Shown here piece after piece: positions 30,573-47,659 of a DNA stretch of 48,591 bases. The position numbers and the translations under genes were made by a program. The stretch is from Bdellovibrionota bacterium (GTDB lineage Bacteria; Bdellovibrionota; UBA1018; CAUJDS01). Each line of letters starts with the position of its first letter. Positions within the stretch are counted from its first letter, which is position 1. The notes below the pieces were generated by a model. The model worked only from the letters and a program-made list of their open reading frames with translations, was not told the origin of the DNA and searched no databases. The stretch spans positions 1 to 48,591 of the forward strand of contig CAUJDS010000061.1 of assembly GCA_963169695.1 (NCBI GenBank), in the 5' to 3' direction.

Positions 30573-31525
30573 AAACGTTCCTTGCTGCTTTTGCAGTCCT
30601 TTGCTTTTTTGCAGGGGATGTTTCGGCTGCACAACTTGCCAAAGTGGAAGCAGCGGAAGTGGAAGTCTATACTGAGCCCTCTGCACAGTCTGCTGTTGTT
30701 GGGAAGCTAAAGAGTGGAGACTTGGTTGCAGCCAGCAACCTGCCTACCCGAGGTTTTTATAAAATTCGAATGCCCCAAGGCGAAGTAGGTTGGGTTTCGG
30801 CGGAGGTGTTGATACTCAATCCACCACAGGAAGAAGGGGCTAACTCCGAGGAAACCCCGGAAGTTTCGCAAGAAATTCAAAAGACACCAAAGCTTTCTGC
30901 TAAGCCAAAAGAATTTGAAACCGCAATGAAAGAGGAGCACTTACATCACTATGTGCTTCGTGGGTTTTTTGATTTGCAATTGCTTAGTTGGAGTGACTTT
31001 GCAACGGTTACTGGATTCAATGCCCCTTCGAGTTTGAAGTCCTTGTCTTTGGAGTTGGAGGCCTATGTTTCTTCCTCCATCTCGTTATTGATGCGATTTG
31101 ACTACCTCTATGCGGGAGCAATTGGCACAACGGATGCCGGAAAAAATTACGAATTCTCCGTGGCGTCCACGCCTTTAATAATTGGAGTGGGATACACGAT
31201 CGGGAGAGATCAAGCCTTTAGCCTAGGAGTTTCTGCAATGGGGGGCTTAGGATTTGGAACAGAGCTGTCGGTTCTGTCTACTTCTGATCTCTCTCCCAAT
31301 GAAACAATCTTGAGCAGTAGCCCACTTGTTTTTGTTGGCAAGGTGCACCTGGCTCATACTTGGAAGAGTGGATTTTGTCTCGCTGCCGAGGCGGGATACC
31401 GCCTTCTCTCTACCTCGCTTCTTGCCCCCTCCACCATTGGAAGTGGATCTTCCATTATTGGTTCGGGCATAGCACTAAACTACAGCGGAATTTTCTTTGG
31501 TGCTGGCCTGGGCATCGCTTTCTAG
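30569..31525 (+). CDS. SH3-domain outer-membrane beta-barrel protein
   Basis: 318 residues, ATG overlapping the previous stop (ATGA). A signal peptide (MKTFLAAFAVLCFFAGDVSA) is followed by a bacterial SH3 domain (about 25-85, 'VEVYTEPSAQSAVVGKLKSGDLV...GEVGWVSAEVL'). After a linker (about 90-125), a C-terminal domain of amphipathic strands ends 'GAGLGIAF', as in an outer-membrane barrel. SH3b domains bind peptidoglycan, so the protein may tie the wall to the outer membrane alongside the M23 enzyme. It is convergent with the GYF-domain gene: the last four bases (CTAG) hold the stop codons of both. Confidence 0.78.
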   Translation: MKTFLAAFAVLCFFAGDVSAAQLAKVEAAEVEVYTEPSAQSAVVGKLKSGDLVAASNLPTRGFYKIRMPQGEVGWVSAEVLILNPPQEEGANSEETPEVSQEIQKTPKLSAKPKEFETAMKEEHLHHYVLRGFFDLQLLSWSDFATVTGFNAPSSLKSLSLELEAYVSSSISLLMRFDYLYAGAIGTTDAGKNYEFSVASTPLIIGVGYTIGRDQAFSLGVSAMGGLGFGTELSVLSTSDLSPNETILSSSPLVFVGKVHLAHTWKSGFCLAAEAGYRLLSTSLLAPSTIGSGSSIIGSGIALNYSGIFFGAGLGIAF

Positions 31526-31980
31526 AGATCCGGATGTTTTTCCCATTGAAAGTGATACACCCAGCAGCCCGAGTCTCTGCGAGCCCTTGTCATGCGAGCC
31601 TGCACATTCATGGAGCGTCCCTTTTTGGTATGAAGGACGTTGAGAGTGACGGGCGTATTTTCTCCGAAGACAGGTTCTACCCCTCGATCCATCGTAGTAA
31701 GTTCGCAGCCCAAATCAGAGGTGTTTCGTAAGAAGCCATTGATCGCCGCTTCATTGTTGAATCCAATCGCTTCCCAATCTACTGAGGAAGCAGCTTTAGG
31801 CTTCGCTGTATGACCAATAGGAGGCGGTGGTGGATCGATGGGCATCCACTCCTTTGCGCCATCTGGCCACATCCAAGTGTATTGAGAAAGTCCGTTGGAG
31901 TGCCGAATCTGTTCGAGTTCCATTTCGGAGTAGGGACCAAAGACTTGGCCATTTCTTGCTAAATAAGTGAGACGGCTCAT
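31522..31980 (-). CDS. GYF-domain protein with possible PilZ-like tail, end of Glt-type cluster
   Basis: 152 residues. Residues 1-55 form a GYF_2-type domain ('YLARNGQVFGPYSEMELEQIR...YTWMWPDGAKEWMPI'), followed by a proline run. Residues about 70-152 are a beta-rich domain with 'VNVQARM'-like strands that could be PilZ-like; this is weak. Myxococcus GltJ contains a GYF domain along with a zinc finger and TonB part, so this could be a reduced, stand-alone equivalent of its cytoplasmic segment. It overlaps the upstream TPR gene by ATGA and is therefore coupled to the gliding cluster. Confidence 0.65.
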   Translation of the reverse strand: MSRLTYLARNGQVFGPYSEMELEQIRHSNGLSQYTWMWPDGAKEWMPIDPPPPPIGHTAKPKAASSVDWEAIGFNNEAAINGFLRNTSDLGCELTTMDRGVEPVFGENTPVTLNVLHTKKGRSMNVQARMTRARRDSGCWVYHFQWEKHPDL

Positions 31981-33926
31981 GGAGTAGGCCCTCCTCTTTT
32001 GACTTCTGATTTGGAAGAGATCGAACGTCCTTTTGAAAGCTCTTGGAGTTTTGTGAGGGCGCGCTCTCGAATGAGCTGACTTTTCACCGCAAGGTACTTT
32101 TCTTTGCTAGAACAGTTGTCGTATAAATCAGCTTTAAAAGACCCTAGCTCGTCTTCCCAAACTTCCTCGCCGCCATAGAGGCCAGAACGAGAGGTCCCCC
32201 AGTTCCATACTTGATCTTCATTATTACCCTGACCCTGACCCTTAAGCTGTTGGGCAACTTGCTCATAGTCTGGATGGGCATTTTGCCAAATGATGTCTTG
32301 GCTAGCGCCGTTGTAGATTTCGACTTCGATGAGCTGATTGTTTTCGGCTATGGAGTCTAAAGTGCGAATCATTCGTAGATTTGCTCTCATCATTTCGCCA
32401 TTAATCTGGTGAAGCAATTGACCTTCGATCTCCGGGGATAGTTTCTGATCAATGGCAAGCAGGCTTACCCAGACAGGCGCCGCTGCGCGAAGGCGTTGGT
32501 AGTGATCGGCATTGTCCTTGAGAGCTTTCAGCCTTGCAAGGATCTGGGCAGAAAGTGTTTCGCCAGGAGCCAACTTGAGTTTAGCTAATTCATATTCCTT
32601 TCGCACTTTTCTTAAAAGCGTCAAAAGCTCGGCCGCTCGCTGTTGCTGTTCTCGATCTCCCGCACGACTCACCTTGGGGCCACGACTCCGTTCATCGAAT
32701 AGCAAATTCATTTCTGACTGTCGGGCAATAAATTGCGAGGATCGAACCCATTCTGTCACAACTTTATCAGGCACCGTTCCCTTCCCTTTCAAATAGGCAA
32801 TAGCGTGGGGATAAAGATTTCTGGATGATGGATCCTTGGCTTTGATCTTTGCTTTCCACTGACTAAGCCAGAGATAGCTATCTTTATAGTTACTTCGAAA
32901 GATATCGATAGCGCGAATAGACTGCGGATACTGGCAAAGCTCGTTTAACGCCATTGCCATCACCATGATAGATTCGGGAGCAAAGGTTCTAAAGAGGGCG
33001 CCCTGTTGCAGGTTCATTGCGGTTCCAATGGCTTCTCCATACTTGTGATCCTTTAGAAAGTTCCAGCTTAGTTCTGAGAGGACTTGTGCCAAATCATTGT
33101 TCTTGCGTTCAACCTGATTTAAATGCTGCACAGACTTCTGGAAGTCTCCGAGTTCAAAATAAATTCGCGCAAGATAAATTCTGGAGAAATCTTCGAGCTT
33201 TACCAATGCGTTTGGCTTCTTAGGATACTTCAGTAGCTTCTCCATACTCATTGCAGCTTCTTTGAGCTTGCCCGCTTTTAAGGACTCCACTGAAGTGGCA
33301 AAATCATAATGTGGCCCGCTACCCTTCAATACCTGAAGAAGTGAGGCATCATAGGTCTGACGGTACAGAGAAGCGGCGCCCTCCCAAATAATTCTCTGAA
33401 TTTCCAATCGGGAGGGGTCGTTTTTCCATTCGCTTCCGCTAAGAGTAGTCTGCAGCTCCTTGACGCGATTTGGATGGCCTTTGGCCCAACCGAGTGATGG
33501 ATACTGACTTTGTAGCGTAGTGAGGCATTGGAGTGCAGCAAGTTGAATTCCGGCGGTTTCCGGGGTGATGGGTTTACTCAACATGGCTGAAAATGCTCGA
33601 TGAGCCATATGTGGCATACTTGCGTAAATCAGTGCTCTCGAAATCCAGTACTCAGAGAAGTAAGTGGTTTCTCCCTCAATTCCTAGCCTTCTTAAGGCTA
33701 GGGCTTCCGAGAATGCCTGTACGGATGATTGCTTAGATTTGAGGAGCAGCTCAAACTCCTGTCGCCAGTCCCTAGGCAATTGCGAGCCAAACCGCCAAGC
33801 TTCGGAACGTGAACAGGCATTTTTGGCAAAAGAAAAGACCGGGGTAGTCCCAGCGCCTTGCGTGGCGAAAGGTAGGAACCAAATGAGGCTGAGTAAGAGG
33901 AGTCGTCGTCTCAACTTATTCTCCAA
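31977..33926 (-). CDS. Exported TPR-repeat protein, GltE-like position in gliding cluster
   Basis: 649 residues from a TTG at 33926-33924 with AAAGGA upstream; no in-frame ATG precedes the signal peptide (ENKLRRRLLLLSLIWFLPFATQGA), and the start overlaps the preceding gene by 11 bases. The body is alpha-helical with TPR-like pairs ('DFSRIYLARIYFELGDFQKSVQHLNQVERKNND', 'YGEAIGTAMNLQQG'). The C-terminal segment 'NWGTSRSGLYGGEEVWEDELGSF' is distinctive. No lipobox cysteine is evident, whereas Myxococcus GltE is a lipoprotein, so GltE is only a positional label; GltC is another TPR possibility. Its place in the cluster suggests a periplasmic scaffold. Confidence 0.65.
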   Translation of the reverse strand: MENKLRRRLLLLSLIWFLPFATQGAGTTPVFSFAKNACSRSEAWRFGSQLPRDWRQEFELLLKSKQSSVQAFSEALALRRLGIEGETTYFSEYWISRALIYASMPHMAHRAFSAMLSKPITPETAGIQLAALQCLTTLQSQYPSLGWAKGHPNRVKELQTTLSGSEWKNDPSRLEIQRIIWEGAASLYRQTYDASLLQVLKGSGPHYDFATSVESLKAGKLKEAAMSMEKLLKYPKKPNALVKLEDFSRIYLARIYFELGDFQKSVQHLNQVERKNNDLAQVLSELSWNFLKDHKYGEAIGTAMNLQQGALFRTFAPESIMVMAMALNELCQYPQSIRAIDIFRSNYKDSYLWLSQWKAKIKAKDPSSRNLYPHAIAYLKGKGTVPDKVVTEWVRSSQFIARQSEMNLLFDERSRGPKVSRAGDREQQQRAAELLTLLRKVRKEYELAKLKLAPGETLSAQILARLKALKDNADHYQRLRAAAPVWVSLLAIDQKLSPEIEGQLLHQINGEMMRANLRMIRTLDSIAENNQLIEVEIYNGASQDIIWQNAHPDYEQVAQQLKGQGQGNNEDQVWNWGTSRSGLYGGEEVWEDELGSFKADLYDNCSSKEKYLAVKSQLIRERALTKLQELSKGRSISSKSEVKRGGPTP

Positions 33927-34677
33927 GTCCTTTACCGATCAAGAAGTCCACCCCAAGAGTAATGACGTGGCTGAAGGCATTTCGTGGCCCTTTGAGCGTA
34001 CCCAGTTGACTCGTAATTTGTTGTTCGTAGAAACTCTCTCGGCGGTACATCAGGCGATAGTCGAGTCGCAAAGACATGACCTGGGTGATATAAAATCGCT
34101 GGCCGATCATTATCGACGGAGCAATGTATTTGCCAGATTCAGTAAAATCAAGGCCAAGTCCGGCGCCAACGTGAAGGTCGAAATAGATAATCTGCTTTCC
34201 AAGAAGACTAAGCTTTCCGTAGAGTAGGCTCCAATTGTTCTCAAGGCCAAGGTAGCCATTTGGCTTATTGGTATTTATTTTTCCGTCTTTTTCGGCCTTA
34301 TAGCGCTCATAAGCGAGAGAATCGGCTACAAAGTTATACATTCCAGTAAGGTGGAGCGAGTAGGTTTCTGAAAAGTGATAACCAAAGCTAGATCCTAAGG
34401 TCTGTACGCTAAGAAAAGGATCGACTGCTACGATTCCACCAAATACGCCAAATTGAAATTTATTGGATTTGGAGAATTTTCTATTTTGGACGACCCCAAC
34501 CTCGGCTGACTTCCCTTTGGTCCAGTATCGGTCTTTGATGTTATTGACATCAACTTTTTCGCCACCCGAGGTTTTCTCTTCCTGGGCAGGAGTGGGTTGG
34601 GATTCTTCAGCTAGTGCAATCTGCCAATGCGTGAGGAAAGCCATCAGAAAGAGGCTGCGCTTTATTGTTCGTTTCAT
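33916..34677 (-). CDS. Outer-membrane beta-barrel protein, GltH/CglE-like
   Basis: 253 residues with a signal peptide (MKRTIKRSLFLMAFLTHWQIALA). A charged linker (about 24-60) precedes the barrel, which starts 'VGVVQNRKFSKSNKFQFGVFGG...SSFGYHFSETYSLHLTG'. This pattern matches the outer-membrane barrel family found mainly in Myxococcota and relatives, which I remember as TIGR04565. Myxococcus gliding clusters encode such barrels (GltA, GltB, GltH/CglE) that form the outer-membrane platform. It starts 5 bases after the GltG-like gene ends. Confidence 0.7.
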   Translation of the reverse strand: MKRTIKRSLFLMAFLTHWQIALAEESQPTPAQEEKTSGGEKVDVNNIKDRYWTKGKSAEVGVVQNRKFSKSNKFQFGVFGGIVAVDPFLSVQTLGSSFGYHFSETYSLHLTGMYNFVADSLAYERYKAEKDGKINTNKPNGYLGLENNWSLLYGKLSLLGKQIIYFDLHVGAGLGLDFTESGKYIAPSIMIGQRFYITQVMSLRLDYRLMYRRESFYEQQITSQLGTLKGPRNAFSHVITLGVDFLIGKGLGE

Positions 34678-34682
34678 GAGGT

Positions 34683-36239
34683 CTATCTCCCAAGTGACTT
34701 AAAGATGAATGGATAGGTGACGCCCACGGTGACACCACCCTTCGGATGTGGAAACTGCCATCGCTTGAGCCGCCGTATAAGGCAGTCGTCAAGCCTTGGA
34801 TCTGGAACAGTTGAACTTTTTACGGCTGCAGTTCGAACGAGACCAGCTGGTCCGATTGCAAAGTCGACAATGAGTTTTCCTTCGATATCAGGTGTGTGAA
34901 TCATGGCGGATTCATAGCAATAGCGAACTTCGTTGAGGTGAGCATGAATGACTTTGCCGACCTCGTCTTTGGTAAGTCCTTCTTCAACTTGGGATCCACC
35001 AGAATCCAGGGAAACAAAAGACGAACCTTGTCCCGCTACGGCGGCAACAGATCCTTTGCCATAGCCAACTTGCTTACCTTTGGCATCTCCGCCCAAAGAA
35101 GAAACTTTAATCTGCCTAGAAGAAGTAAGGTGTTTGTCGGAAACATTGCCTACAGTAGCCGACGAATTAAAAACTTTCTTCGAGGCGCTTCGATCACCGC
35201 CGACAAGGTCTGATTGGGCGAGTAGGGTGGTGAGTCCACCCTTGAGAAGGCCTTGAACAGCATTCTGTACGGCTTGTGCACGGAAAGCTTGGACCACTTC
35301 TGTTTGCGCGGCCTTGGTTGGGGCAGGTGTTCCTCCGCCTTCTTTAATGCCATCTGACTTGGGCGCTTCCTGCGGTGTCATGACGATTTTGGCATATTGT
35401 TCTGGTATGAGTTCATTGGGATCTTCTTGCGGCTTTGGCATGAAGTAAGAAATAGCTAAGAACAGCGTAAGGAGCGCGCCAGCGATCTGAACGGACCGCT
35501 TTAAGTTCGAGAGGTCCTCGGAAGATTCTCTGGAAACGCGTACATCTATGCTGGGAATTTTTTTGGCATTAGCAGTGCCAAAGTGCCAACTATGTGCATT
35601 CCATTGCAAAGTGGATTCAAGAATTTCGCTTTTTCCAAGGGTTGATTCGTTAGAACCCATTGCCGCGCCTTCCGAATCTTTGTTTCCAAGCGTAAGGCCG
35701 TCGCTGAGTGGGTGAATTCTGTACTGAGATCCCTGAACCGTTATTTCAAAAAGGGTCTTGCCTGAGGCTGTACCAACATACTTCTTTTGTATTCGAGTTA
35801 CGTCATGAACCCAGTTGCCAATGCATTGATAGATTCGTAGTGGGTCAGATTCAGAAGATTCCTGGAGAAATGGGGCTTCAATCGTTTGAGCGGTTGTGAC
35901 TCGAATGCTATAGTCTCGACAGAAATCTTTAGGGCCAGGCAGAGTCTGGTCTGAGGCATTGCGGAGGTCCTTTTCTGTCATTTCAAGGAAAGCATCTTCG
36001 ACACGCTCGTTGACGGGGCTTCCTACCCAGCGAATTCGAATGCCAGCATCTGTCGTCCGTTCAAGAAACCAAAGGACGGGATAGCCAAGTGCTAGTGGGC
36101 GATCTGGATTCCATATGATTGTTTGTGTCGTAGAATCTTTTGAGGAAATTTTTCGAGTTAGGGCGACGACGAACCGCTTCGGCTGACGCTGCTTTTTCTT
36201 TGTGCCTGTGCTGCGTGCCGCTGTGGTGTTTAGACTCAT
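34683..36239 (-). CDS. AgmX/PglI-type TonB-like transducer, GltG-like
   Basis: 518 residues: a cytoplasmic N-terminal domain (about 20-255), one membrane helix (about 257-277, 'AGALLTLFLAISYF'), a glycine/serine-rich periplasmic linker, and a C-terminal domain (about 425-515) 'EEGLTKDEVGKVIHAHLN...VRYCYESA' and 'VVDFAIGPAGLV'-type strands. The last domain matches the AgmX/PglI C-terminal family related to TonB, with conserved cysteines. In Myxococcus, GltG and GltJ have this architecture and carry the AglRQS motor's force through the periplasm to the outer-membrane complex. It overlaps the small upstream gene by ATGA. Confidence 0.78.
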   Translation of the reverse strand: MSLNTTAARSTGTKKKQRQPKRFVVALTRKISSKDSTTQTIIWNPDRPLALGYPVLWFLERTTDAGIRIRWVGSPVNERVEDAFLEMTEKDLRNASDQTLPGPKDFCRDYSIRVTTAQTIEAPFLQESSESDPLRIYQCIGNWVHDVTRIQKKYVGTASGKTLFEITVQGSQYRIHPLSDGLTLGNKDSEGAAMGSNESTLGKSEILESTLQWNAHSWHFGTANAKKIPSIDVRVSRESSEDLSNLKRSVQIAGALLTLFLAISYFMPKPQEDPNELIPEQYAKIVMTPQEAPKSDGIKEGGGTPAPTKAAQTEVVQAFRAQAVQNAVQGLLKGGLTTLLAQSDLVGGDRSASKKVFNSSATVGNVSDKHLTSSRQIKVSSLGGDAKGKQVGYGKGSVAAVAGQGSSFVSLDSGGSQVEEGLTKDEVGKVIHAHLNEVRYCYESAMIHTPDIEGKLIVDFAIGPAGLVRTAAVKSSTVPDPRLDDCLIRRLKRWQFPHPKGGVTVGVTYPFIFKSLGR

Positions 36240-36517
36240 TTTCGAAATCTCACTTCATCAAGAGAATCAGCTAGCTCCGGTCGGAAGTGAGTGCGCTTTT
36301 CATAGAGCCTGGACTGGTCACGCTTGCGGTCTTTGTTGGCGAGGGTGTTGAGGTAGTCAAAGGGGCGTTTGTTCATGCCCTCAACGACTTGGTCTTCAAA
36401 ATCTAAGGAGGTTTCGCGAGAAGAGCCCGCGACGTGACTCTGCGCAAAAGCACTGGTGCTCACCGCTATCCCAAATGCCAAGAATGCGAGCGCTCGAATC
36501 GCGCTGCTATGTTTCAC
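36236..36517 (-). CDS. Small exported protein, GltF/CglF-like
   Basis: 93 residues from a GTG at 36517-36515 with GGGGG five bases upstream; no in-frame ATG exists before the signal peptide (AIRALAFLAFGIAVSTSAFA). The mature part is short and charged, with 'LDFEDQVVEGMNKRPFDYLNTLANKDRKR' and 'LYEKRTHFRPE'. I associate this pattern with the small periplasmic gliding proteins encoded before gltG in myxobacteria; this is recall, not a computed match. It is the first gene of the second gliding operon. Confidence 0.65.
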   Translation of the reverse strand: MKHSSAIRALAFLAFGIAVSTSAFAQSHVAGSSRETSLDFEDQVVEGMNKRPFDYLNTLANKDRKRDQSRLYEKRTHFRPELADSLDEVRFRK

Positions 36518-36542
36518 GTGGCCCCCTAGTTTGATCTAAGAC

Positions 36543-36583
36543 TTAATATTAATAATAATTCATATAGTTAAATAATGCAAACA
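36543..36583 (-). promoter_or_regulatory. Sigma-70-like promoter of second gliding operon
   Basis: On the minus strand TTGCAT (36580-36575) is followed after 17 bases by TATTAT (36557-36552). Initiation is expected near 36545, about 28 bases before the GTG start. Over 41 bases this site matches the promoter at 46254-46294 at 32 positions, including spacer bases and the stretch after the -10 box. Confidence 0.6.
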
Positions 36584-36642
36584 ATGAATTAGCAATGTAA
36601 TCAAGTACTTAGGTTAAGCAAGAGCATTGATCCTGGCGAGCA

Positions 36643-36715
36643 ACAGCCCCAGCAAGGCGGGTTTGATGCTTCTAAGTTAGCAATGGGTGACAGGAAGGGG
36701 AGCAGCGAGGGGGGG
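36643..36715 (+). repeat. Left inverted-repeat arm of HNH cassette
   Basis: Contains CCCCAGCAAGGCGGGTTTGA at 36647-36666, the exact reverse complement of 38176-38195. Further matches inward include AAGTT, TGACAGGA and GCGAGG. Confidence 0.7.
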
Positions 36716-37116
36716 CTGCAGCTTCGATTTAGTACATTTATAATATGTATATTAACGAATCCGCACTAGGATCTGAAGGCTACCGCTTGGTCGTACTGTA
36801 CGATGAGGGTTTGGTGCCCGAGAAGCCTGCAGCAAGCTACCTTTTCTGATTGTGACTTATTTGTGAGTGCAAAATAAAATGCAGATGATTTTTTTCTTGG
36901 CTCATTGAAGAGCTGTTTTCTTTTTCATTTCTTGGCAATCGTCCAACTTTTCTCATTACGGAGCTAAGCCTTCACATTTTCATTTAGAGCGGAGAATGTT
37001 CACTTCACGGGAAGGATCTTAATTTTGAGAATGAAACTCATTAGCGGCTAAAGAAGCGAGAAAAATCGCGCATTAAAACCCGTGGTAAGTTCCTCCTCGT
37101 TGAAAGGAACTCTCCA

Positions 37117-38076
37117 ATGTCACACGTATTTTGCACGCTCCATGATCAAGCTTTGAAGCTCTCTAGGCAATACCTTGCTTGCGAGAAAGCACTTTTAGAA
37201 ATTCTTGTGCAGATTGAGGCTAAGAAAATTTATCTTCAACAAGGCTATGCAAGCCTAACCGAGTATTCTCAGAAGGCACTTGGGCTATCTCGAGATGTCA
37301 GCTGGAACCTTGTTACCATTGTTCATAAAACCAAAGCCGTACCAGAGCTTAAGCACGCGGTGCAAATGGGGGTACTTCCTCTGAGTAAAGCTAGGCAGAT
37401 CGCCCCCCATTTGACGAAAGAAAATTCTCAGAAGTTCATCGCCTTGGCTCAGGCCATGCCAAGAGAGAAGCTTCAAGAAGCGCTCGCCAAAGAATGCCCC
37501 AAGATTCCAAGCGTGGAAGAGCGTGCCCGGGTAATCAACGCGACACAGACTGAGCTTTCTTTGTGTTTGCCAAAAGACGTCATGGAGAAACTTAGGCGAG
37601 CCCAAGATCGAGTCTCTGAGTCGCAAAAGAAGTGGGTTGGACTAGCAGAGACCTTAGAGCAGGTCATCGAATTCTACCTTCAGCACAAAGATCCAAAAGA
37701 AAAAGCCAAGCGCCATGAAGTTCGAAAAAACAAAGCAGCTCTGAAGGCAATTCAACCCCGTCGTACAGTACGAGAATCTGACGCGGCTGCTAGAAATTCT
37801 GAATTTAATCTTATGCCTATCAATAAGCCTATAGCCAAGATTCAAGCAAAAGGCCGAGTCCCCATTCCTGCGGGTATCAAACACGAGGTGACTATCAAGA
37901 ATGCACATCAGTGCACCTATCGAGACTCTAGGACCCAGCTTCGATGTATGAAAGAAAGGTTCTTACACATCCATCACAAGCTTCCGGTAGCAATGGGTGG
38001 AACTAATGCGTTAGAGAATCTTACTTTGCTTTGCAGCGCCCATCATCGCTTAGAGCATTATCGAGGAGGCGGGTAG
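37117..38076 (+). CDS. HNH endonuclease domain protein
   Basis: 319 residues from the ATG at 37117 with AAAGGAA upstream. The helical N-terminal region ('CEKALLEILVQIEAKKIYLQQGYASLTEYSQKALGLS') is of the DUF222-like kind seen in multicopy HNH proteins. The C-terminal nuclease (about 260-319) has 'HQCTY...LRC', 'HIHHKLPVAMGG', 'NLTLLCSAHHRLEH', that is the His-His, Asn and His residues of the HNH beta-beta-alpha-metal fold plus zinc-binding cysteines. The gene is intact. It runs against the flanking gliding genes and lies between long inverted repeats, so it is probably cargo or agent of a mobile element. Its cleavage site is unknown. Confidence 0.85.
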   Translation: MSHVFCTLHDQALKLSRQYLACEKALLEILVQIEAKKIYLQQGYASLTEYSQKALGLSRDVSWNLVTIVHKTKAVPELKHAVQMGVLPLSKARQIAPHLTKENSQKFIALAQAMPREKLQEALAKECPKIPSVEERARVINATQTELSLCLPKDVMEKLRRAQDRVSESQKKWVGLAETLEQVIEFYLQHKDPKEKAKRHEVRKNKAALKAIQPRRTVRESDAAARNSEFNLMPINKPIAKIQAKGRVPIPAGIKHEVTIKNAHQCTYRDSRTQLRCMKERFLHIHHKLPVAMGGTNALENLTLLCSAHHRLEHYRGGG

Positions 38077-38291
38077 GATTTTGATGATCGCTGCGCATTT
38101 CTAATCGTAGGGTTACTTTGGCGCTGCCCACCTCGCGGCATCCTCCTCCTGTCATCCCGGCCAAACTTCCTAGCTTCAAACCCGCCTTGCTGGGGATGTG
38201 ATAACTCTGTCTGGTCGCCTATGGGGCAAGCATTTATGAAATAGATTTGTTTACACAGAGAATTAGCCAGTAAGAACTCTATAGTCTCGCT
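38077..38291. other. Intergenic region between HNH gene and TPR gene
   Basis: Holds the right inverted-repeat arm (38124-38199). The remaining 90 bases up to the stop of the 1222-aa TPR gene are AT-rich, with no clear intrinsic terminator. Confidence 0.5.
38124..38199 (-). repeat. Right inverted-repeat arm of HNH cassette
   Basis: Reverse-complement partner of the left arm; the perfect block is 38176-38195. The outermost bases ACA/TGT also match across one mismatch. Confidence 0.7.
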
Positions 38292-41200: not shown

Positions 41201-41960
41201 TGGAATTGTAATAGATAATGTGTGATTCGAGATAGGAAAGGGCTTTTGAGATCTCGCCCAAGTTGTAATAGGACCATGCCAGCTTATAGAGTGCATAAGG
41301 ATACTGCGGATGCTCAGGCTTTTTTTCCACCTGCAGAAGGTATCCAATGGCTTCTTGATGATGGTTGTCTTCAATCGCAAATTGAGCCAAAGCCATGTAG
41401 GCAAGAGGCACTTCAGGGGCCTCAGGAAACTTCTGTGTGAAGGCCAGGTAGTCTGATTTCGCATCCTTCTTTTGCTCTAGTTCTTCGCGAGCCTTGGCTT
41501 GCATAAAGTAGGCGCGCCCACTATCCGTATGGTCTGGATAACCTCGGATGAGTTGTTGTGTCGTTGAGATGATGGATTTTAGAGTGGTATTATAATCTTT
41601 GAGATCGAGGGGGCCGTTGTTGTAGTGAGCCTTAGCGTGCGCAATGCGGAATTGAATCGCGCCAGCTTGCTGATGGACATCGGCAAGTCGAAGCAGAAGT
41701 TCTGGAATGCGCCGTGTGCCTTGGTATTTCTTGATGAGTTCATGGATCTTTTTTTCGGCTATTTTTTGGGTGTCGAGGGCTACCTTGTCTACTTGGCGAT
41801 CATAGTTTTCGCGACTATTGGGATTTTTCACTTTTGAAGAACCGGGTCCTGCGACAATATCGGTAGCTTTCTTTGGTGGTTTTTTTGGTGCGGCGACGGA
41901 TAGGGCACCCGTGAGGCTCAAACCGATCAATAGTCCAAAAGCAAGAAACCTTTTTTGCAT
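38292..41960 (-). CDS. Large periplasmic TPR protein, GltD-like position
   Basis: 1222 residues with a signal peptide (MQKRFLAFGLLIGLSLTGALSVAA) and a Lys/Pro-rich start to the mature protein. Helical TPR-type pairs run through the length, for example 'LADVHQQAGAIQFRIAHA', 'AYFMQAKAREELEQKKDAKSDYLAFTQKFP' and 'YALYKLAWSYYNLGEISKALSYLE'. It directly follows the AglRQS-type motor genes (15 bases after the last). Large TPR proteins (GltD/AgmU, GltE, GltI/AgmK) are parts of the Myxococcus gliding complex; the signal peptide favours a periplasmic GltD-like role. It is the last gene of the first gliding operon, and the HNH cassette follows. Confidence 0.75.
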   Translation of the reverse strand: MQKRFLAFGLLIGLSLTGALSVAAPKKPPKKATDIVAGPGSSKVKNPNSRENYDRQVDKVALDTQKIAEKKIHELIKKYQGTRRIPELLLRLADVHQQAGAIQFRIAHAKAHYNNGPLDLKDYNTTLKSIISTTQQLIRGYPDHTDSGRAYFMQAKAREELEQKKDAKSDYLAFTQKFPEAPEVPLAYMALAQFAIEDNHHQEAIGYLLQVEKKPEHPQYPYALYKLAWSYYNLGEISKALSYLESHIIYYNSKFEVETGYSQSDLAIRDTSLLDTAVFYYEGFAREPGSYAVSKALPYFKSLESGITFGKMLERFAKVLRTNGKTEALLEWQNVVAKGEPRRPESMEVALIAFEHLWNQKLYPEMPQPLQSIIALYETNKTDLSKFDAYQRSQNVILDKANELRTSILKNKDKGNALKVWSEPLANLYDTFTKIVKETDPRVPAVHYNLAETLFAIGRFEESTFHYRWIVNKWTNAWAVKDGVQLEDSSLKAIASRYEVFKTKDFSPKKLEVKNLDENSKNSMDPLLTEWLAWIDWHESHFSKDFKKFDSFLFESARSLYYKNYLEASLQRLLHISRAYPTSLFAVPAGSLVLDTYVKNARWKDARDLAHEYLKVQNWNDPQFKTKIFSVAADSSYKLMETDFRDKKYLEVVTAFGSFETRYPGSPRIQDALYLAARASESTKDLVSSGNFYQKLIKTFPKSEHLPASYLSSGKIGEALYRFSDAASDYLAYTRLPKDKVKMSESELTDLRKKIVHLGWISGDRKQLITSLESPEICNKELEVFCNRYLALNSLQTRDRKPEELMKLALNAPRDNRPIWAAAALEQQEALRYPDRLLLSKQVAGRWNDLEPDLQLALLPKVSISIPKSFELNRQDIDRLTPLKSSEKSITHRVAQIKEIEESAKSSMKLPWARIRARVMLEIAQLYIDFSKSLSQLAPPKGLPENEAASYQETIQKLVLPFEEKGQELRSKSFEIASTNSIEDSDFVKIANLFFADNPSQASQITGGVKSIEPIRFSHKTLRRLDPKGLWETINLEMKLQGEVTELYLKSRWSLALKEQKWQQVSYFLQELKDRNLTTSSGLALMRAVTLAYAGARAEALKELLDVRSQLGDDYRNQATVIALSHYIKTFSKEATLDWIKKLEDESSSHLMKTAISNEREAFLLSYGIAWTQAKVSDRNRMDLLLMAQKSDNNDESYWARTELRRIQQLQDPTPKSTETKK

Positions 41961-41975
41961 CCCCGAAACCTCATC

Positions 41976-42482
41976 TTACTGATTTTGTACGACAGCAAGC
42001 TTGAAGTCAGTGTAACCATTCACTGCTGCTGATGCGAGCACTGTCTTGATGGTAGAATAGGGTGCCTTTTGATCAGCGACAATGAGAATTTTCGGATCGA
42101 TCTTCACCTGGGAATTTGCCTGAGCAATGGTCATTTGCCTTTTTCTCTCTTTGGCTAGCGCTTGAGAGAGTGATTTGGATGTCTTATTGCCATCCATGTC
42201 GCCCATAGCAAATTGATAATCTTTGAGGTCCAAAACGGGTTGGTTTTCGATAAGGACTGCGGTGGATGATATCTCTACTTTGAGTGCATCCGTGGGGACT
42301 TGATTAGAGGAGAAAACCTCTGGAAGCACGAGTCCAGCGGAAGGAGAGAGCGTCACAGCAGACGTTGTGAAGCTTTTAAGTAGAAAAACCAGAAGAACCG
42401 TAAAAATATCCGCCATGGCCGTAATGTTGAGCGACATGTCTTGGGCTTGGGCTGCTTTTTTGTGAAAGAGCTTGCGACTCAT
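41976..42482 (-). CDS. aglS: TolR/ExbD-like gliding motor subunit (AglS-type)
   Basis: 168 residues, ATG one base after the preceding stop. A single helix (about 20-40, 'ITAMADIFTVLLVFLLKSF') carries the conserved membrane aspartate D25. The periplasmic domain is of TolR/ExbD type ('VKIDPKILIVADQKAPYSTIKTVLASAAVNGYTDFKLAVV'). A TolQ homologue followed by two TolR homologues is the signature order of Myxococcus aglR-aglQ-aglS, the proton-driven motor of focal-adhesion gliding. The label depends on this order and on the adjacent Glt-like genes. Confidence 0.75.
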   Translation of the reverse strand: MSRKLFHKKAAQAQDMSLNITAMADIFTVLLVFLLKSFTTSAVTLSPSAGLVLPEVFSSNQVPTDALKVEISSTAVLIENQPVLDLKDYQFAMGDMDGNKTSKSLSQALAKERKRQMTIAQANSQVKIDPKILIVADQKAPYSTIKTVLASAAVNGYTDFKLAVVQNQ

Positions 42483-42483
42483 G

Positions 42484-42936
42484 TCAAAATCCCCCTAGGA
42501 GAACGCCAGGGAAGATTTTTCGGAGGGCTTCCATGGTTTTTACGACATCACGGTATTCTACTTGCGCATCCGCCGACAATGTCACGGCGCCGACAGTCGG
42601 AAAGTCCTTTCGGTAAGCTTGAAGACTCTGACTCATTCGGTCATAACCCCAGTTTTCCCCGACTGCAGAAATGGAGATGGTCTTATTCACTTTTCCAGTG
42701 ACGCGAATCTCCAGGTTATGTTTGGATTGGAGGTGAATTCCCAGTGTAATGGGTGGCTTGGCAGTTGACGTTGAGCTTGCCCCTCCAGCGGATATTCCGG
42801 CATCTAGGAATCCAATAGAAAGGAAGGCCGCTGAAGCAAGCATGAACGAGATGAGAACAACCAGCGCGTCAATGATCGGCGCTAGGTTGAGATCAACATC
42901 TTGGTCATTGCCGCCTGGTAGTTGCCCGACGCTCAT
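42484..42936 (-). CDS. aglQ: TolR/ExbD-like gliding motor subunit (AglQ-type)
   Basis: 150 residues, ATG overlapping the stop of the TolQ-like gene (ATGA). The helix 'LNLAPIIDALVVLISFMLASAAFL' (about 16-39) has the membrane aspartate D23. The corresponding residue of Myxococcus AglQ (reported as D28) is needed for gliding. The periplasmic domain follows the ExbD pattern ('VTLSADAQVEYRDVVKTMEALRKIFPGVLLGGF'). Together with the neighbouring subunits it should form a proton channel powering gliding. Confidence 0.75.
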   Translation of the reverse strand: MSVGQLPGGNDQDVDLNLAPIIDALVVLISFMLASAAFLSIGFLDAGISAGGASSTSTAKPPITLGIHLQSKHNLEIRVTGKVNKTISISAVGENWGYDRMSQSLQAYRKDFPTVGAVTLSADAQVEYRDVVKTMEALRKIFPGVLLGGF

Positions 42937-43628
42937 GCTGATTTCCTCAGCGGAACGATATTGTCAGAGCTGCTAGACTCTGCGCCTTGACGGCCCGTAA
43001 CATAATACCGCTGTTTGAGGATCTCAAGTACGCGAACAGAGCTATGCTCGAGTTCTGCAACCAGCCGTGAGGCGCGATTCACCAAGAAACTAAAAGCAAT
43101 CATGGATGGAATCGCAACAGCGAGTCCCATCATCGTAGCGTTCATGGCAGTTGCAATACCTGCAGCAAGAAGTGCAGACTTCTGCTGTGGATCAGCGTGT
43201 CCAACGGCATCGAAGGACTGGATCAATCCCACAATCGTTCCAAATAGGCCCAAAAGAGTTGCTACGTTTGCAATGGTTGCAAGGAAACTGGTTCTCTTCT
43301 GGATCATCTGGGTAGCTAATCCTACTTCGTATTCAATACCATGTTCAACCATGCTCTCAGGGAGGTGTGCTCGAATCAGCGCACCTTTGATAACTCTGGC
43401 AAGGGGTTTGGACTTTTCATACTCATCGCAAAAAGCAACGGCCTGAGAAGTCTGTCCCGATAAGACCATTTCGGTAATTTTGTCTAAAAACGCTCGTGGG
43501 TTTCCGATCGGATAGGTCACAAACAGCGCCTTTCCTCTCTCCAAAACGATTGCAAGCGCGAAGGCACCCACAATCAAAATAGGCAGCGCATGCGAGAAGT
43601 GATCCCTGATAAAGTCTAAGATTCCCAT
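42933..43628 (-). CDS. aglR: TolQ/MotA-like gliding motor subunit (AglR-type)
   Basis: 231 residues with the MotA/TolQ/ExbB fold: a first helix about 12-30, then 'FLATIANVATLLGLFGTIVGLIQSF' and 'GIATAMNATMMGLAVAIPSMIAFSFL', which hold the channel motifs. A second TolQ homologue in the window, separate from tolQ at 22555-23250. It lies 25 bases after the CglB-like gene and overlaps the AglQ-type gene by 4 bases. Function by position is the stator of an Agl-type gliding motor; an alternative is an ExbB of unknown cargo. Confidence 0.78.
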   Translation of the reverse strand: MGILDFIRDHFSHALPILIVGAFALAIVLERGKALFVTYPIGNPRAFLDKITEMVLSGQTSQAVAFCDEYEKSKPLARVIKGALIRAHLPESMVEHGIEYEVGLATQMIQKRTSFLATIANVATLLGLFGTIVGLIQSFDAVGHADPQQKSALLAAGIATAMNATMMGLAVAIPSMIAFSFLVNRASRLVAELEHSSVRVLEILKQRYYVTGRQGAESSSSDNIVPLRKSA

Positions 43629-43653
43629 TTTATGTTCCCCCTTTTAATTCAAT

Positions 43654-45327
43654 TTATGACTTTGGTTGATAGTTGATAATGATTTGGTCGCCGACTTGGT
43701 AGCCAAGGATCCAATTCAAATTGGTAATTCTTAAAGTTGTGCCAGATACCGTGAAGTCACTGCTTGGAATAGTTGTACTGCTACTGTCAGAATGACGAAT
43801 GCGTACGATCATGTCTTCCGCGCCAGTTGGTGGTCTGGTCAATTGAAATGTACCTGCGCGTTCAATAATTTTGGTTCCAATAGAGTCTAAGACGCTAGCG
43901 TAATTGGACTGGCCCAAATCAGCTACCGAGGATCCGTTTCCAACTTGATTGACTAGGCTTGCAATGCGATCAGGGTAGTCTACTGAGTGCGATAACGTGA
44001 TTCCTGCCGTCTGTTCTATAGCAATTCGAGCACTGTGGAGAGATTGGATTGAGGCTCCAGTAGTTGGAATGATGCCGTATACAAAATACGAATCAGTGCT
44101 TGCAGATCCGTCTAGCGTATTGAAGAAAGTGTCGAGGCGGGATTTGAATGAGCTAACAGACACAAGTTTTGTAGAATCTGGGCAGACGCTAGGTGTGAAA
44201 GTATAGCTATCAACTGTTTTGGATGGGCAGGATAGGCCTGCAGCTCCATAGGTACAGTTGGTGGCGTTGCTGCAGCAATAATTTGTCGTAACGGATGCAC
44301 CGTTGAGGGTGACCAGGCTTGCTTGATCGCATGCATAATCAGAGTTAGGACTAAATGTGCCAGAAGGACTTGATGGAAGGCTCATGGATTGGTCATTTTC
44401 ATCGGTGACAAAAATAATAGCTCGTATGGAACCCGCCCTGAAAAGCGCAGTGGAAGTTCCTTCATTGTCAGTGAGTAACTGATCGATGGATGAGAAATGT
44501 CGTTCGGAGCCGTGTCCCACTGCCCCTGTTGTGAGATTGAGGAGTGCGCGATCAATCAGCGCCGATATCCAAGCCTCGTCACCAGGTGTTCCTGATGGAG
44601 GACGCGTTTCTAAAATGGCTTTTCCAGAATGGACGGAGTCATTCTGAATCGTGTTTACGCATTGGGTGAGTGAAGCTTCGCCGGCTCCTGTGTTTGGAGC
44701 CAGGCAATGAGAGTTGCCTGTGTTGTGAGACTGATCGTCTCGAATACGACACTGTGTTGCACCATTAAGGAAGGCTGGGAGCCCTTCAAAGCAGAGTCCG
44801 GTGATAGGACCATCGTGTGTTCCTGTAAGGAGCCTTGCATAGTTGGAGCCCCAGGATGGAACTAATTCCTTAAATTTAATTCCGCTATCAAAGCGAGCAG
44901 TCGTTGTATTGAGTAGCGTGGTATTCCAGCTAGGATTCTGCCAGGTTCCTAGTCTAGATAAAATATAGGGTGACTGGTAACTCACACTTCCAGGAACAAC
45001 TCGATTCAAGTATCCATTAAAGGTGGAATTGGCTAGGTAGGCGTCACTTGGAATAACAGCCATGCGAATGTCCATGCTAGGTTTCATGTACTTGCGAGCG
45101 AAGGAATCAAAACCGGTGCGTAGGGTTGCTTGATAGGCATCCATGCTAGCGGAATTGTCTACGACCCAAAGAAGGTCAACCTTCACATTGATGTCTTGAA
45201 GTGCTTGAAAAGTCTCTTCACGCTGAGCAAAACGAAAGCTGTCTTGTAGCTGTTCTGTGCATGCAGACATAGTCATTAATGCCGCTGTTGAAACATAGGT
45301 CAAAATTTTATTTGTCTTCAGTTTCAT
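43654..45327 (-). CDS. VWA-domain surface lipoprotein with MIDAS, CglB-like adhesin
   Basis: 557 residues. The signal peptide ends in a lipobox-like 'TMSAC' with Cys23. A von Willebrand A domain follows, with the MIDAS motif DNSAS at 57-61 in 'VDLLWVVDNSASM' and a second acidic site in 'IIFVTDENDQS'. Many cysteines in the middle region suggest disulfides. In Myxococcus, CglB is a surface-exposed, Cys-rich VWA lipoprotein that acts as the adhesin of the gliding complex. Here a protein of the same design is encoded directly before the motor genes. The C-terminal beta region ('RITNLNWILGYQVGDQIIINYQP') resembles a beta-sandwich. Homology to CglB is inferred from architecture and context, not from alignment. 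Confidence 0.75.
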   Translation of the reverse strand: MKLKTNKILTYVSTAALMTMSACTEQLQDSFRFAQREETFQALQDINVKVDLLWVVDNSASMDAYQATLRTGFDSFARKYMKPSMDIRMAVIPSDAYLANSTFNGYLNRVVPGSVSYQSPYILSRLGTWQNPSWNTTLLNTTTARFDSGIKFKELVPSWGSNYARLLTGTHDGPITGLCFEGLPAFLNGATQCRIRDDQSHNTGNSHCLAPNTGAGEASLTQCVNTIQNDSVHSGKAILETRPPSGTPGDEAWISALIDRALLNLTTGAVGHGSERHFSSIDQLLTDNEGTSTALFRAGSIRAIIFVTDENDQSMSLPSSPSGTFSPNSDYACDQASLVTLNGASVTTNYCCSNATNCTYGAAGLSCPSKTVDSYTFTPSVCPDSTKLVSVSSFKSRLDTFFNTLDGSASTDSYFVYGIIPTTGASIQSLHSARIAIEQTAGITLSHSVDYPDRIASLVNQVGNGSSVADLGQSNYASVLDSIGTKIIERAGTFQLTRPPTGAEDMIVRIRHSDSSSTTIPSSDFTVSGTTLRITNLNWILGYQVGDQIIINYQPKS

Positions 45328-45377
45328 AAATTTTCCTTCCTGGGGCCAGTTCGCTTCGATAGTCCTTTCATCTCAGC

Positions 45378-46208
45378 TTAAAAAGATTGGTTACTCGTCT
45401 TGGCATGGCCGGATTCGGCTTTCATGACGCAAGCGCCAGCACGTTCTTTGACAAGCCATGCGCGCGATATAGCGCCCTTTTGATTCAAGGCTTTTGTCAG
45501 TTCATTTTGAAAAGCGTTTAGTTCTTTCTCTAGTGTCTTTTCGTGAGCGGATGGGCCCTTCTTCTTGGCTTGTTTGTCCCAGTTGGTGTATTCCGCGCCG
45601 CCGAGATTGGCCTGTCCCGCATCTCCCAGAGCAGCCATGAATTCATCCACGGGAACTTTGCAGGTTTCTTGGCAGAGAACTTTGCCCACGCAGTAGTGTG
45701 CGGAAATTTCAGCATTCGGACCGGCGGATCCGTTCACTATGACGTCAAGCTTGGCAGGATTTTCGTGATTCTTTGCCGTTTCAAATTTTACGGGAGTGCC
45801 ATTGACTCTAACGCAAAGAGACTGGGGTTGGATTCCGGCCTCCTGGAGCGTAATGATGTTCTGCAGGCGAGCATATTCTTCCAATTTCTTAGGGCTACGA
45901 TCTTTGTCTCGCTTATAGGTCATTTTGTAACAAGCAGGTTTCAGAGGTGTGCTGCTCATCTCGGCAGACTTTGAAGTAGCGGTGTCAGAATTTTTTTCAT
46001 GAGCTTCCAAAGAGGGAGTCTTCGAAGAAACAGAGTCCTGCTTGTCACTTTGACTCTGAGCTTCTTCGCTGTTTGTGACAGAACGGGTTTCCTCTTGTGA
46101 AGATTGAGAAGTGGCATCGCCTCCAGAGGGCTGACGCAGGTGGTACCAGGTTGCCATTCCCATTAGGCAACCCAAGCCAAGGACTAGGTTTCGAATCGAG
46201 TTTTTCAT
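45378..46208 (-). CDS. Membrane-anchored protein of unknown function, first gene of gliding operon
   Basis: 276 residues with an N-terminal helix (about 6-23, 'RNLVLGLGCLMGMATWY'). A Ser/Thr/Glu-rich linker (about 27-90) follows, then a domain with several cysteines ('ACYKM', 'SLCVRVNG', 'YCVGKVLCQETCKVP') and a charged helical stretch. I do not recognise the family. It is preceded by a strong AT-rich promoter shared with the second gliding operon and followed 50 bases later by the CglB-like gene, so a role in the same machine is likely by context only. Confidence 0.65.
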   Translation of the reverse strand: MKNSIRNLVLGLGCLMGMATWYHLRQPSGGDATSQSSQEETRSVTNSEEAQSQSDKQDSVSSKTPSLEAHEKNSDTATSKSAEMSSTPLKPACYKMTYKRDKDRSPKKLEEYARLQNIITLQEAGIQPQSLCVRVNGTPVKFETAKNHENPAKLDVIVNGSAGPNAEISAHYCVGKVLCQETCKVPVDEFMAALGDAGQANLGGAEYTNWDKQAKKKGPSAHEKTLEKELNAFQNELTKALNQKGAISRAWLVKERAGACVMKAESGHAKTSNQSF

Positions 46209-46336: not shown

Positions 46337-47659
46337 TTATTTCTTTTCTGGGAGGAGGGCTTCGAAATCCTTGGCGAGGTTGGGCCAAAGTTCCTTACCC
46401 TTGTCGAGTAAGGACGAGGCCGCATCCTTTAAATTGGTTTGAAGGTAAACTTTGGCTAGGCCCTTGTAGAGGTCCGGATCGGAGATTCCTTGGGCCAATA
46501 TTTTTCTGCCGCGGTCGACACTCATTGCGGGGGGACTAATGGCGGAATGCACCATAAACTCGCAGACCAGAAAATCGGCCTCGCTTTGATTGGCAGATGG
46601 AAAACGTTTGAGGTACTTCTCCGCTTCTGCTGGAAGTTCAGCTTGCAATAAGGTTGTGATAATTTCTCGAAGGATTTTAGTTCTCCCACCCGCTGTTATG
46701 CCCGCCTTTTCGAAAAGTTCAAGGGCTCGCGCATTGTGACTATTCTTCAAGTAATACTTTCCGCAAACGACTAGCGCCGCGCAAACGTATTTGACCAACA
46801 TTTCGTCGCGCTGATCAATTCCCGTAAATGCTTGGTAGTAGCGTTCAATGTCTTCATAGGCGCCCGTCATTATAGCTAGTCGAAGTACGCTGGCGAGGCG
46901 TTGCGGATTGGCAGGAAAGTAGCGAGATATTTTTTTCACGACATCATAGGCTTTTGCGTACTTCTTTTGGCCCATGAGCATTTCAAAAAGACCAACCATG
47001 CACTTGTAGTGAATCTTGTTGTAACTTAGTCCTTGTTGATAATCCCCCTCGGCTAAATCCAAAGCCTTTTTAATTTCTTCAGCTTGGCCCAAGTAAAAGA
47101 AAGCAAGAGCTGGCTTTTTGTCTAAGGTGCGAGCTTTTTTGAATAGAGCAATGGCATCTTCAGGCTTTCCCTCTTCAAAAAGCTTTGCTTTACCTTCGTT
47201 GATGGTCTTCATGTACTCGCTGGGTTGAATTTTTGCCAGGACAGCTTTCATGATAGATTGTCGCAAAACCTCGATCGTGTAAGGTTTGAGAAGGAAAGTG
47301 TCTACATCTTCTTCTGCTGCTTGTGCGACAGCACTTTGAGAGCTGTTCCCTGTAACCAAAACAAAAAGGCTGTTTTTTGAATCAGGGTTTTCTTTGCGCT
47401 GCTGTTGAAGAAGGTCAAGTCCTCTGCCTCCACCAATTTCAAAGTCACAAATGACGATATTGGGTTTGTGTTTAGCAATCGCATCGCGTGCGACTTCGTA
47501 GGTGTTTGCAAGAGTCATGAACTGAGTTTGGGCACCCATATTGGACATGGCCCTTGCAAGTCCCGCTCGGGAAGCGTTGCTAGCATCCGCAACAACAATT
47601 TTTTTATCTCTAATGTAGGTATCGAAGAGCTTTTCGTTGTTGGATTTCGGCTTAGCCAT
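46337..47659 (-). CDS. Response regulator with TPR domain
   Basis: 440 residues. The receiver domain (about 18-140) has the phospho-acceptor Asp72 in 'IVICDFEIGG', a Thr in 'LVTGNS', and the Lys in 'TFLLKPYT', so it looks functional. The rest is helical TPR repeats ('GKPEDAIALFKKARTLDKKPALAFFYLGQAEEIK', 'NSHNARALELFEKAG'). There is no DNA-binding or enzymatic output domain, so output is by protein contact. It starts 3 bases after the preceding small gene. The gliding operon starts just downstream with its own promoter, so a role for this regulator in motility is possible but not shown. Confidence 0.85.
   Translation of the reverse strand: MAKPKSNNEKLFDTYIRDKKIVVADASNASRAGLARAMSNMGAQTQFMTLANTYEVARDAIAKHKPNIVICDFEIGGGRGLDLLQQQRKENPDSKNSLFVLVTGNSSQSAVAQAAEEDVDTFLLKPYTIEVLRQSIMKAVLAKIQPSEYMKTINEGKAKLFEEGKPEDAIALFKKARTLDKKPALAFFYLGQAEEIKKALDLAEGDYQQGLSYNKIHYKCMVGLFEMLMGQKKYAKAYDVVKKISRYFPANPQRLASVLRLAIMTGAYEDIERYYQAFTGIDQRDEMLVKYVCAALVVCGKYYLKNSHNARALELFEKAGITAGGRTKILREIITTLLQAELPAEAEKYLKRFPSANQSEADFLVCEFMVHSAISPPAMSVDRGRKILAQGISDPDLYKGLAKVYLQTNLKDAASSLLDKGKELWPNLAKDFEALLPEKK

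Follow-up and report, generated by a model that had tools for sequence, protein, structure and literature searches.

CglB is the VWA adhesin of the Myxococcus gliding machinery (PMC13104615). Published descriptions of compact Agl-type operons in Bdellovibrio go back at least to 2008-2011 (PMC2277423, PMC2797640, PMC3169522). B. bacteriovorus carries four of them, Bd0412-0420, Bd0828-0838, Bd1473-1483 and Bd2368-2377 (PMC2797640), and the literature of 2008-2012 calls Bd1473-1483 a gliding operon. A 2026 review describes the gliding machinery of Bdellovibrio as still unidentified, and names its motor, its adhesins and the path of force as a major challenge (PMC13104615). Here we analysed 48,591 nucleotides from a Bdellovibrionota bacterium (the whole of this stretch of contig CAUJDS010000061.1, hereafter the window), in which eleven minus-strand genes, running from 46208 down to 31522, form a cluster whose membership of the Agl-Glt family is well supported by sequence comparison. 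We consider that these genes probably encode a single machine, driven by protons and spanning the envelope, which belongs to the Agl-Glt superfamily and to its Bd1473-1483 subtype, with surface movement, that is gliding, as its likeliest use.

The motor and its closest relatives

In the cluster, one TolQ and two TolR genes stand beside a TonB-like protein with an AgmX/PglI tail, together with exported TPR proteins and an OMP_myx-type barrel, the combination that marks the Agl-Glt superfamily. AglRQS and GltG references were taken from Myxococcus sp. CA023 and Anaeromyxobacter terrae, with M. xanthus DK1622 not included; these named myxobacteria came from a search of genomes with MglA from the PDB, of which the best 80 of 585 loci were retained. 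In the reference that we take to be B. bacteriovorus HD100, four of the TolQ genes are at about 398, 787, 1403 and 2282 kb. Their positions fit the locus-tag order of the published operons, and the third set reads VWA, PilZ gene, TolQ, matching the published neighbours Bd1483, Bd1482 and Bd1481 (PMC2277423, PMC3271064); we therefore strongly infer that the four sets are the four operons, and name them accordingly.

Two trees were built. The TolQ-only tree has 41 rows, including Tol-Pal and Exb-type proteins, and the named outgroup is not one side of any branch; the joined TolQ, first TolR and second TolR tree has 32 rows and 543 columns, 9 of the 41 rows being left out where the second TolR was not called. 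The motors of two same-order loci (L250, L246) are in neither tree, and that of L241 is not in the joined one. With TolQ alone, the Agl-type proteins form one clade of 33 rows (support 100/99), and the Tol-Pal and Exb-type proteins lie outside it, among them a separate TolQ of the window (22555-23250). This clade divides into clade A (8 rows, 98/90), with myxobacterial AglR, Bd0828, Bd0412, Bd2368, the source-genome locus on contig C80 and two rows of genome G076, and clade B (25 rows, 95/73), with the window, the source-genome loci on contigs C11, C12 and C63, Bd1473 and others. The joined tree supports the split at 100/99. In that tree the 16 window-type rows are monophyletic at 100/100, and their sister is the Bd1473 set plus one G076 motor (G076_b; 91/92 joined, 95/86 with TolQ alone). 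Forcing the 16 window-type rows together with the two myxobacterial AglRQS rows costs 72.7 log units (approximately unbiased test, p 1e-4), for a group chosen after the first tree had been inspected. Two long branches, C80 and G079_C67, are less certain in their placement. By these trees, the window motor is outside the AglRQS clade, in a sister lineage shared with the Bd1473-1483 operon of B. bacteriovorus, and the term 'aglRQS homologue' does not distinguish finely enough among the four Bdellovibrio sets.

The pore threonines of TolQ and the membrane aspartate of TolR have the roles known from TolQR. Alignment shows that the window TolQ retains the threonine positions and that each window TolR retains one membrane aspartate. 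The first TolR of the Bd1473-1483 set is without this aspartate, unlike the window protein, and in HD100 protons may perhaps be carried by the second TolR only.

Gene content and order point to the same relative. The Bd1473-1483 set and the window share the VWA gene, a GYF protein, TolQ, both TolR, the TPR giant, a GltG-like protein, an OMP_myx-type barrel and a further TPR protein in nearly the same order (VWA, TolQ, TolR, TolR, TPR, GltG, barrel, TPR). The differences are a VWA protein of 353 residues in HD100 against 557 in the window, a GYF-PilZ gene that HD100 has between VWA and TolQ, its PilZ domain being above cut-off with RxxxR but no strict [DN]xSxxG, and, in HD100, no HNH element and neither X276 nor CglF found. 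The other three HD100 sets are also compact and of Agl-Glt type; unlike the window, they have motors in the AglRQS clade and another gene order. Myxococcus and Anaeromyxobacter share with the window the TolQ-TolR-TolR arrangement, a GltG with AgmX tail, CglF, a GltC-like TPR protein, a TPR giant and an outer-membrane barrel, but their motor belongs to the other clade, and the window GltG scores 121 bits against 1095 for that of CA023.

A first-pass annotation made from the letters of the window had taken the cluster for a condensed version of the Myxococcus machine, nearly in gltD-J order. The strongly supported separation of the motor from AglRQS speaks against the former; as to the latter, only the run TPR giant-CglF-GltG is shared with the Anaeromyxobacter G1 locus, where the other genes are placed differently, and the order fits Bd1473-1483. 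Nor is compactness distinctive, since all four B. bacteriovorus sets share it (PMC2797640). The same annotation was right in calling the locus Agl-Glt-type (most proteins match such families), in placing a MIDAS lipoprotein beside the motor, in expecting a non-myxobacterial genome (it falls in the phylum of the HD100-like Bdellovibrio genome) and in finding no MglA in the window. The MglA gene lies on contig C26 of the source genome, at about 9e-73 to solved MglA chains; a genome search for the Arf family matched only C11 and C26.

Conservation and components of the cluster

At E<=0.001, the TPR giant is matched in 38 of 43 same-order genomes at least 85% complete, the source genome included. 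Twenty same-order stretches were taken around chosen better matches, and their gene order was counted by tblastn, the queries being the proteins of the window and a small number of relatives from L240, L250, L251, L255 and L257. All eleven genes recur in the window order in 6 of the 20 (L239, L240, L250, L251, L252, L254), while the other stretches have many of the eleven; the cluster is therefore not a product of chance. TolQ is present in 17 stretches: the VWA gene directly precedes it in 12, lies at the far end in 2 (L257, L258) and was not found by tblastn within 3 (L246, L249, L256), while X276 matches lie just upstream in 14. As for the three stretches without TolQ, two end at a contig edge (L245, L253) and one (L243) had no motor gene found before the TPR gene.

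Every gene that the first-pass annotation had named in the cluster was confirmed where it was described (Table 1), from the VWA lipoprotein, TolQ and two TolR to the two TPR proteins, the small exported protein, the AgmX/PglI protein, the barrel and the GYF protein. That annotation lacked the HNH gene and X276 as a conserved member. Adjacent genes lie -11 to +50 bp apart, with the single exception of a 1774-bp gap that contains the plus-strand HNH gene. Export signals were assigned by eye.

Table 1. Features of the Agl-Glt-type locus, in the direction of its reading (cut-offs are those of the models)
Feature	Position	Strand	Evidence
X276, 276-residue exported or anchored protein, conserved first gene of the cluster	45378..46208	-	No Pfam match; Cys-rich C-terminal domain
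VWA/MIDAS surface lipoprotein, 557 residues, predicted adhesin	43654..45327	-	MIDASAdhsBdello 7.6e-7, CglD 1e-3, both below cut-off
TolQ/AglR-like proton-channel subunit	42933..43628	-	PF01618 MotA_ExbB 1.2e-25
First TolR-like subunit (TolR/ExbD)	42484..42936	-	PF02472 4.3e-12; transmembrane Asp kept
Second TolR-like subunit (TolR/ExbD)	41976..42482	-	PF02472 2.1e-15; transmembrane Asp kept
Exported TPR scaffold, 1222 residues	38292..41960	-	TPR families; best NCBIfam model tol_pal_ybgF, below cut-off
HNH-endonuclease mobile element (open reading frame 37117-38076), not a machine part	36644..38198	+	HNH 5.4e-7; imperfect terminal inverted repeats
Small exported CglF(GltF)-like protein, GTG start	36236..36517	-	NF033764 9.4e-5, 22 bits, below cut-off
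GltG-like TonB-type protein, AgmX/PglI tail (myxo_SS_tail)	34683..36239	-	NF033760 121.5 bits (cut-off 650); NF033768 105 bits (cut-off 40); TonB-type C-terminus
Outer-membrane beta-barrel, OMP_myx_plus family	33916..34677	-	TIGR04565 83 bits (cut-off 60)
Exported TPR protein, 649 residues, distant GltC relative	31977..33926	-	TPR repeats; NF033756 37.2 bits (cut-off 450), 1.4e-9
GYF-domain protein, 152 residues, decayed PilZ-like domain	31522..31980	-	PF14237 GYF_2 26.5 bits (cut-off 25.8); PF07238 15.2 bits, below cut-off

The VWA lipoprotein had no Pfam match at E 0.1, scored 28.6 bits with the MIDASAdhsBdello model (cut-off 700) and found nothing among PDB sequences. Its lipobox Cys23 and its MIDAS, D57-x-S59-x-S61, are invariant in all 13 aligned VWA proteins; a lipobox and a DxSxS MIDAS within a VWA fold, the features of a CglB/MIDAS-type adhesin, are present. 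The structure model (predicted local distance difference test, pLDDT, 81.4; predicted template modelling score 0.84) matched integrin I-type and other VWA domains in VIA-align (best Z 13.8, fiftieth 11.7), and as modelled the protein has a VWA/I-type fold, which is evidence on fold and not on ligand. Integrin beta headpieces head the Foldseek list (E 5.5e-7 and worse) with a template modelling (TM) score by query length of only 0.23-0.29 and a root-mean-square deviation of 11-16. We claim no specific integrin kinship, as the integrin I rows of VIA-align are closely trailed by TFIIH and other VWA domains; that Bd1483 is not named among the 50 fold matches listed carries no evidential weight.

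Within HD100, the VWA profile ranks the VWA gene of the Bd1473-1483 set first (1.8e-18; the next is 6.2e-14); among Myxococcus and Anaeromyxobacter proteins the matches cover only about 50-65 residues each, those of CA023 about 50-60 around the MIDAS, one of them in a 418-residue frame. VWA/MIDAS-type genes, all below the MIDAS model cut-off, lie in or at the end of three of the four HD100 sets (Bd0412-0420, Bd1473-1483, Bd2368-2377), and another in a locus of genome G064 (L319); there is none in the Bd0828-0838 stretch. The pairing of a MIDAS-type protein with such a machine is thus repeated, not universal. Across the phylum, 250 of 324 genomes at least 80% complete have a VWA match at E<=0.001, mostly to the MIDAS region only; matches above 300 bits occur in 23, of which 22 are of the same order (source genome included) and one is not.

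For the TonB-like, the small exported and the second TPR protein, the first-pass expectation of best matches in Glt families held, a Glt model being best or among the best, but it failed for the 1222-residue TPR protein, whose best NCBIfam model is tol_pal_ybgF (81.5 bits, cut-off 90.1). The latter gave phmmer matches of 3e-12 to 3e-20 to TPR proteins of the Anaeromyxobacter and HD100 Glt loci and has near-full-length relatives within the order, at up to 870 bits; its Glt kinship is proposed because of the phmmer matches and its position. The GltG-like protein has one membrane span, by eye, and no FHA model matched it. At 121.5 of 650 bits for GltG and 37.2 of 450 for GltC, these proteins fall short of Myxococcus-type equivalogs. 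The CglF-like gene may start a few codons upstream of its GTG.

A GltJ-type protein consists of a zinc ribbon, a GYF domain and a TonB-like tail. The 152-residue protein is the sole GYF protein of the cluster; GltJ was sought in the genome through the AgmX tail alone, and no work on the zinc and GYF parts of GltJ was found in the open literature. Against PDB sequences the window GYF protein found nothing. It has [DN]xSxxG only and no RxxxR; of the 12 window-type proteins scanned, 11 are without RxxxR and the twelfth (L257) has one at residue 174 of 193. By comparison, GYF-PilZ fusions with both domains above cut-off and RxxxR occur in the Bd1473-1483 set, in a G076 locus (L181) and on source-genome contig C56, and only the last has [DN]xSxxG in strict form. 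Often the last cluster gene is a PilZ-like half only: the L239 protein matched no GYF model, and in the alignment L239, L243 and L251 are without the GYF part. It appears, then, that the window-type GYF protein has lost its cyclic-di-GMP input in this order. Bd1482 was put forward by Hobley et al. as a candidate PilZ effector for gliding (PMC3271064).

In the X276 alignment Cys is invariant. The structure model is weak (pLDDT 68.5), with no PDB fold match at E<=0.001; diphtheria-toxin chains among the best matches were dismissed as chance level (E 0.035 and worse, TM score by query length below 0.2).

The HNH element, related loci and neighbouring features

The HNH unit, of about 1555 bp, splits the cluster between its two halves. 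Its terminal inverted repeats are imperfect: they measure 59 nt with 78% complementarity in the window copy, and blastn with other copies puts them at about 72 nt. The HNH part of the unit bears a weak likeness to that of IscB. The source genome has ten near-full-length copies, the window one plus nine, with proteins 83-88% identical, besides several fragments or shorter derivatives. Four of the ten lie in or at most 1.1 kb from Agl-Glt-type loci (C61:37117, C63:6070, C56:5343, C12:1269), loci that make up 2.25% of the genome; the binomial value of 5e-5 is post hoc, the distance having been picked after looking, and it becomes 0.16 at distance 0 (1 of 10) and 1e-3 within 700 bp (3 of 10). The idea of the element as a general companion of Glt loci was dropped, no HNH relative being found in the 20 same-order stretches. 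The junction between TPR giant and CglF is a possible breakpoint hot spot in same-order loci: among the 19 stretches that reach past the TPR gene, 4 carry inserted genes of at least 150 codons there (L240, L243, L245, L249), 2 continue into other genes without CglF or GltG (L241, L242) and 13 have no such gene.

Ten MotA_ExbB genes and five AgmX/PglI tails above cut-off, plus one below, were counted in the source genome, which has at least five TolQ-TolR-TolR sets (C61, the window; C11; C63; C80; C12) and five GltG-type genes. The C11 locus repeats the window order TolQ-TolR-TolR-TPR giant-CglF-GltG-OMP-TPR, with counterparts at 7e-103 to 1e-9; unlike the window, it has no X276, VWA or GYF gene called and no HNH insertion. 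Contig C56 carries a Glt set whose stretch holds no motor genes (OMP, GltC-like at 100 bits, TPR, CglF-like, GltG-like and a two-GYF-PilZ protein), and C12 a TolQRR set whose stretch holds no Glt genes; these may be partner loci. With the GltG model, C63 scores 211, C56 151, C80 128, the window 121.5 and C11 88.5 bits, and on these comparisons the window locus is neither the sole nor the most Myxococcus-like candidate of its genome.

Elsewhere in the window, a gene for a response-regulator-TPR protein (46337-47659) lies upstream of the cluster; close relatives occupy the upstream position in L240 and L250 too, and in L253 they lie in the vicinity of the locus. The separate TolQ at 22555-23250, which is paired with a TolR, is the best MotA_ExbB match of the genome; its Tol-Pal label in the tree is our own and is not based on the operon as a whole. 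Neither Rfam families nor tRNA genes were found in the window. Promoter and terminator scans of the window gave shuffle-level counts (17 against 16.2 and 15 against 17.5) and are uninformative on transcription across the HNH element.

Possible functions of the machine and their meaning

Following the Myxococcus model (PMC13104615, PMC3169522), proton flow would turn or flex the TolQRR motor, and GltG would pass this motion on across the periplasm, following the TPR scaffold as far as the barrel. Held or displayed by the barrel, the MIDAS lipoprotein would grip a surface or another cell, and the bacterium would thereby be drawn along or pressed against it. Cytoplasmic docking of the machine is the probable role of the GYF protein, which in this order would lack the cyclic-di-GMP input that its counterpart Bd1482 may have. 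Judged from published Bdellovibrio mutants and by inference, gliding or a surface force is the most likely function, though not a certain one. Transposon mutants in Bd1481 (aglR) and Bd1483 were weaker on thick biofilms and still formed halos (PMC2277423), and bd1480 is surface-induced and lower without the cyclic GMP-AMP (cGAMP) synthase Bd0367, itself needed for gliding (PMC9140294).

Several points weigh against a gliding machine of this kind. Deletion of bd1483 leaves predation on E. coli normal (PMC11003981); expression of the Bd1473-1483 operon drops when cells pass from attack phase to 30 min of predation, and it rises only in host-independent growth (PMC2797640); and Luciano et al. put Bd0828-0838, not Bd1473-1483, as the best gliding candidate (PMC3169522). 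As to the window itself, the source organism is known from an 82-contig assembly, no Glt model of the NCBIfam scan matched the 1222-residue TPR protein, and the GltG, GltC and CglF models scored far below their curated cut-offs. Furthermore, the HNH element could exert a polar effect on the genes of the downstream half, and one of the other related loci of the source genome could be the gliding machine instead.

The force might serve to grip rather than to glide, acting on the MIDAS adhesin for attachment to prey or other cells. The recurrence of VWA/MIDAS-type genes with three of the four HD100 sets fits this use, as does the requirement of aglS Bd0838, of another set, for prey attachment (PMC6561027) and the action of the related MIDAS protein Bd0875 in prey invasion (PMC11003981). 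Deletion of the counterpart bd1483 caused no invasion defect, however (PMC11003981), and a predatory lifestyle of the window organism is not indicated by this analysis; we regard gripping as unlikely, though worth keeping in mind. Quite unlikely, in our view, is a role like that of Nfs, in which the machine would move or export a surface polysaccharide and not the cell. In M. xanthus the Agl motor powers both gliding and the Nfs-dependent rotation of a spore-surface polymer (PMC3858216), and GltA-H are paralogous to NfsA-H (PMC4488436); yet no polysaccharide synthesis or export family was found among the eleven genes or the scanned neighbours in this genome's window, and the co-encoded surface protein is a MIDAS protein.

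That the locus is an ordinary Ton/Tol energiser (ExbB-ExbD-ExbD), serving uptake or the stability of the envelope, is highly improbable. TolQ and TolR do match the general MotA_ExbB and ExbD families, but the Tol-Pal and Exb-type proteins stand outside the Agl-type clade (100/99, the outgroup not being one side of a branch). The TolQ of the cluster groups with neither kind; a grouping with ExbBDD proteins is what the first-pass annotation had named as contrary to its reading. The cluster has no TonB-dependent receptor, its partners being the AgmX tail, OMP_myx_plus and TPR proteins.

What is added here is the two-clade placement of the motor, the conserved eleven-gene order in this order of bacteria, the X276 protein, the recurrent pairing with a MIDAS protein and the decay of the PilZ domain, none of which was found stated in the consulted text of open-licence papers, supplements excluded. 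It is conceivable, and we put it forward only tentatively, that Bdellovibrionota have a gliding or gripping engine of their own, a second, non-AglRQS motor lineage inherited as one operon with its scaffold, barrel and integrin-like MIDAS lipoprotein, and that the gliding apparatus of Bdellovibrio is the Bd1473-1483 set. A set held in one operon, whose order is kept across many genera, whose adhesin gene adjoins the motor and whose channel residues are intact, reduces the candidates for the gliding machinery to a defined list of genes, and its Bd1473-1483 counterpart allows a direct test in B. bacteriovorus HD100.

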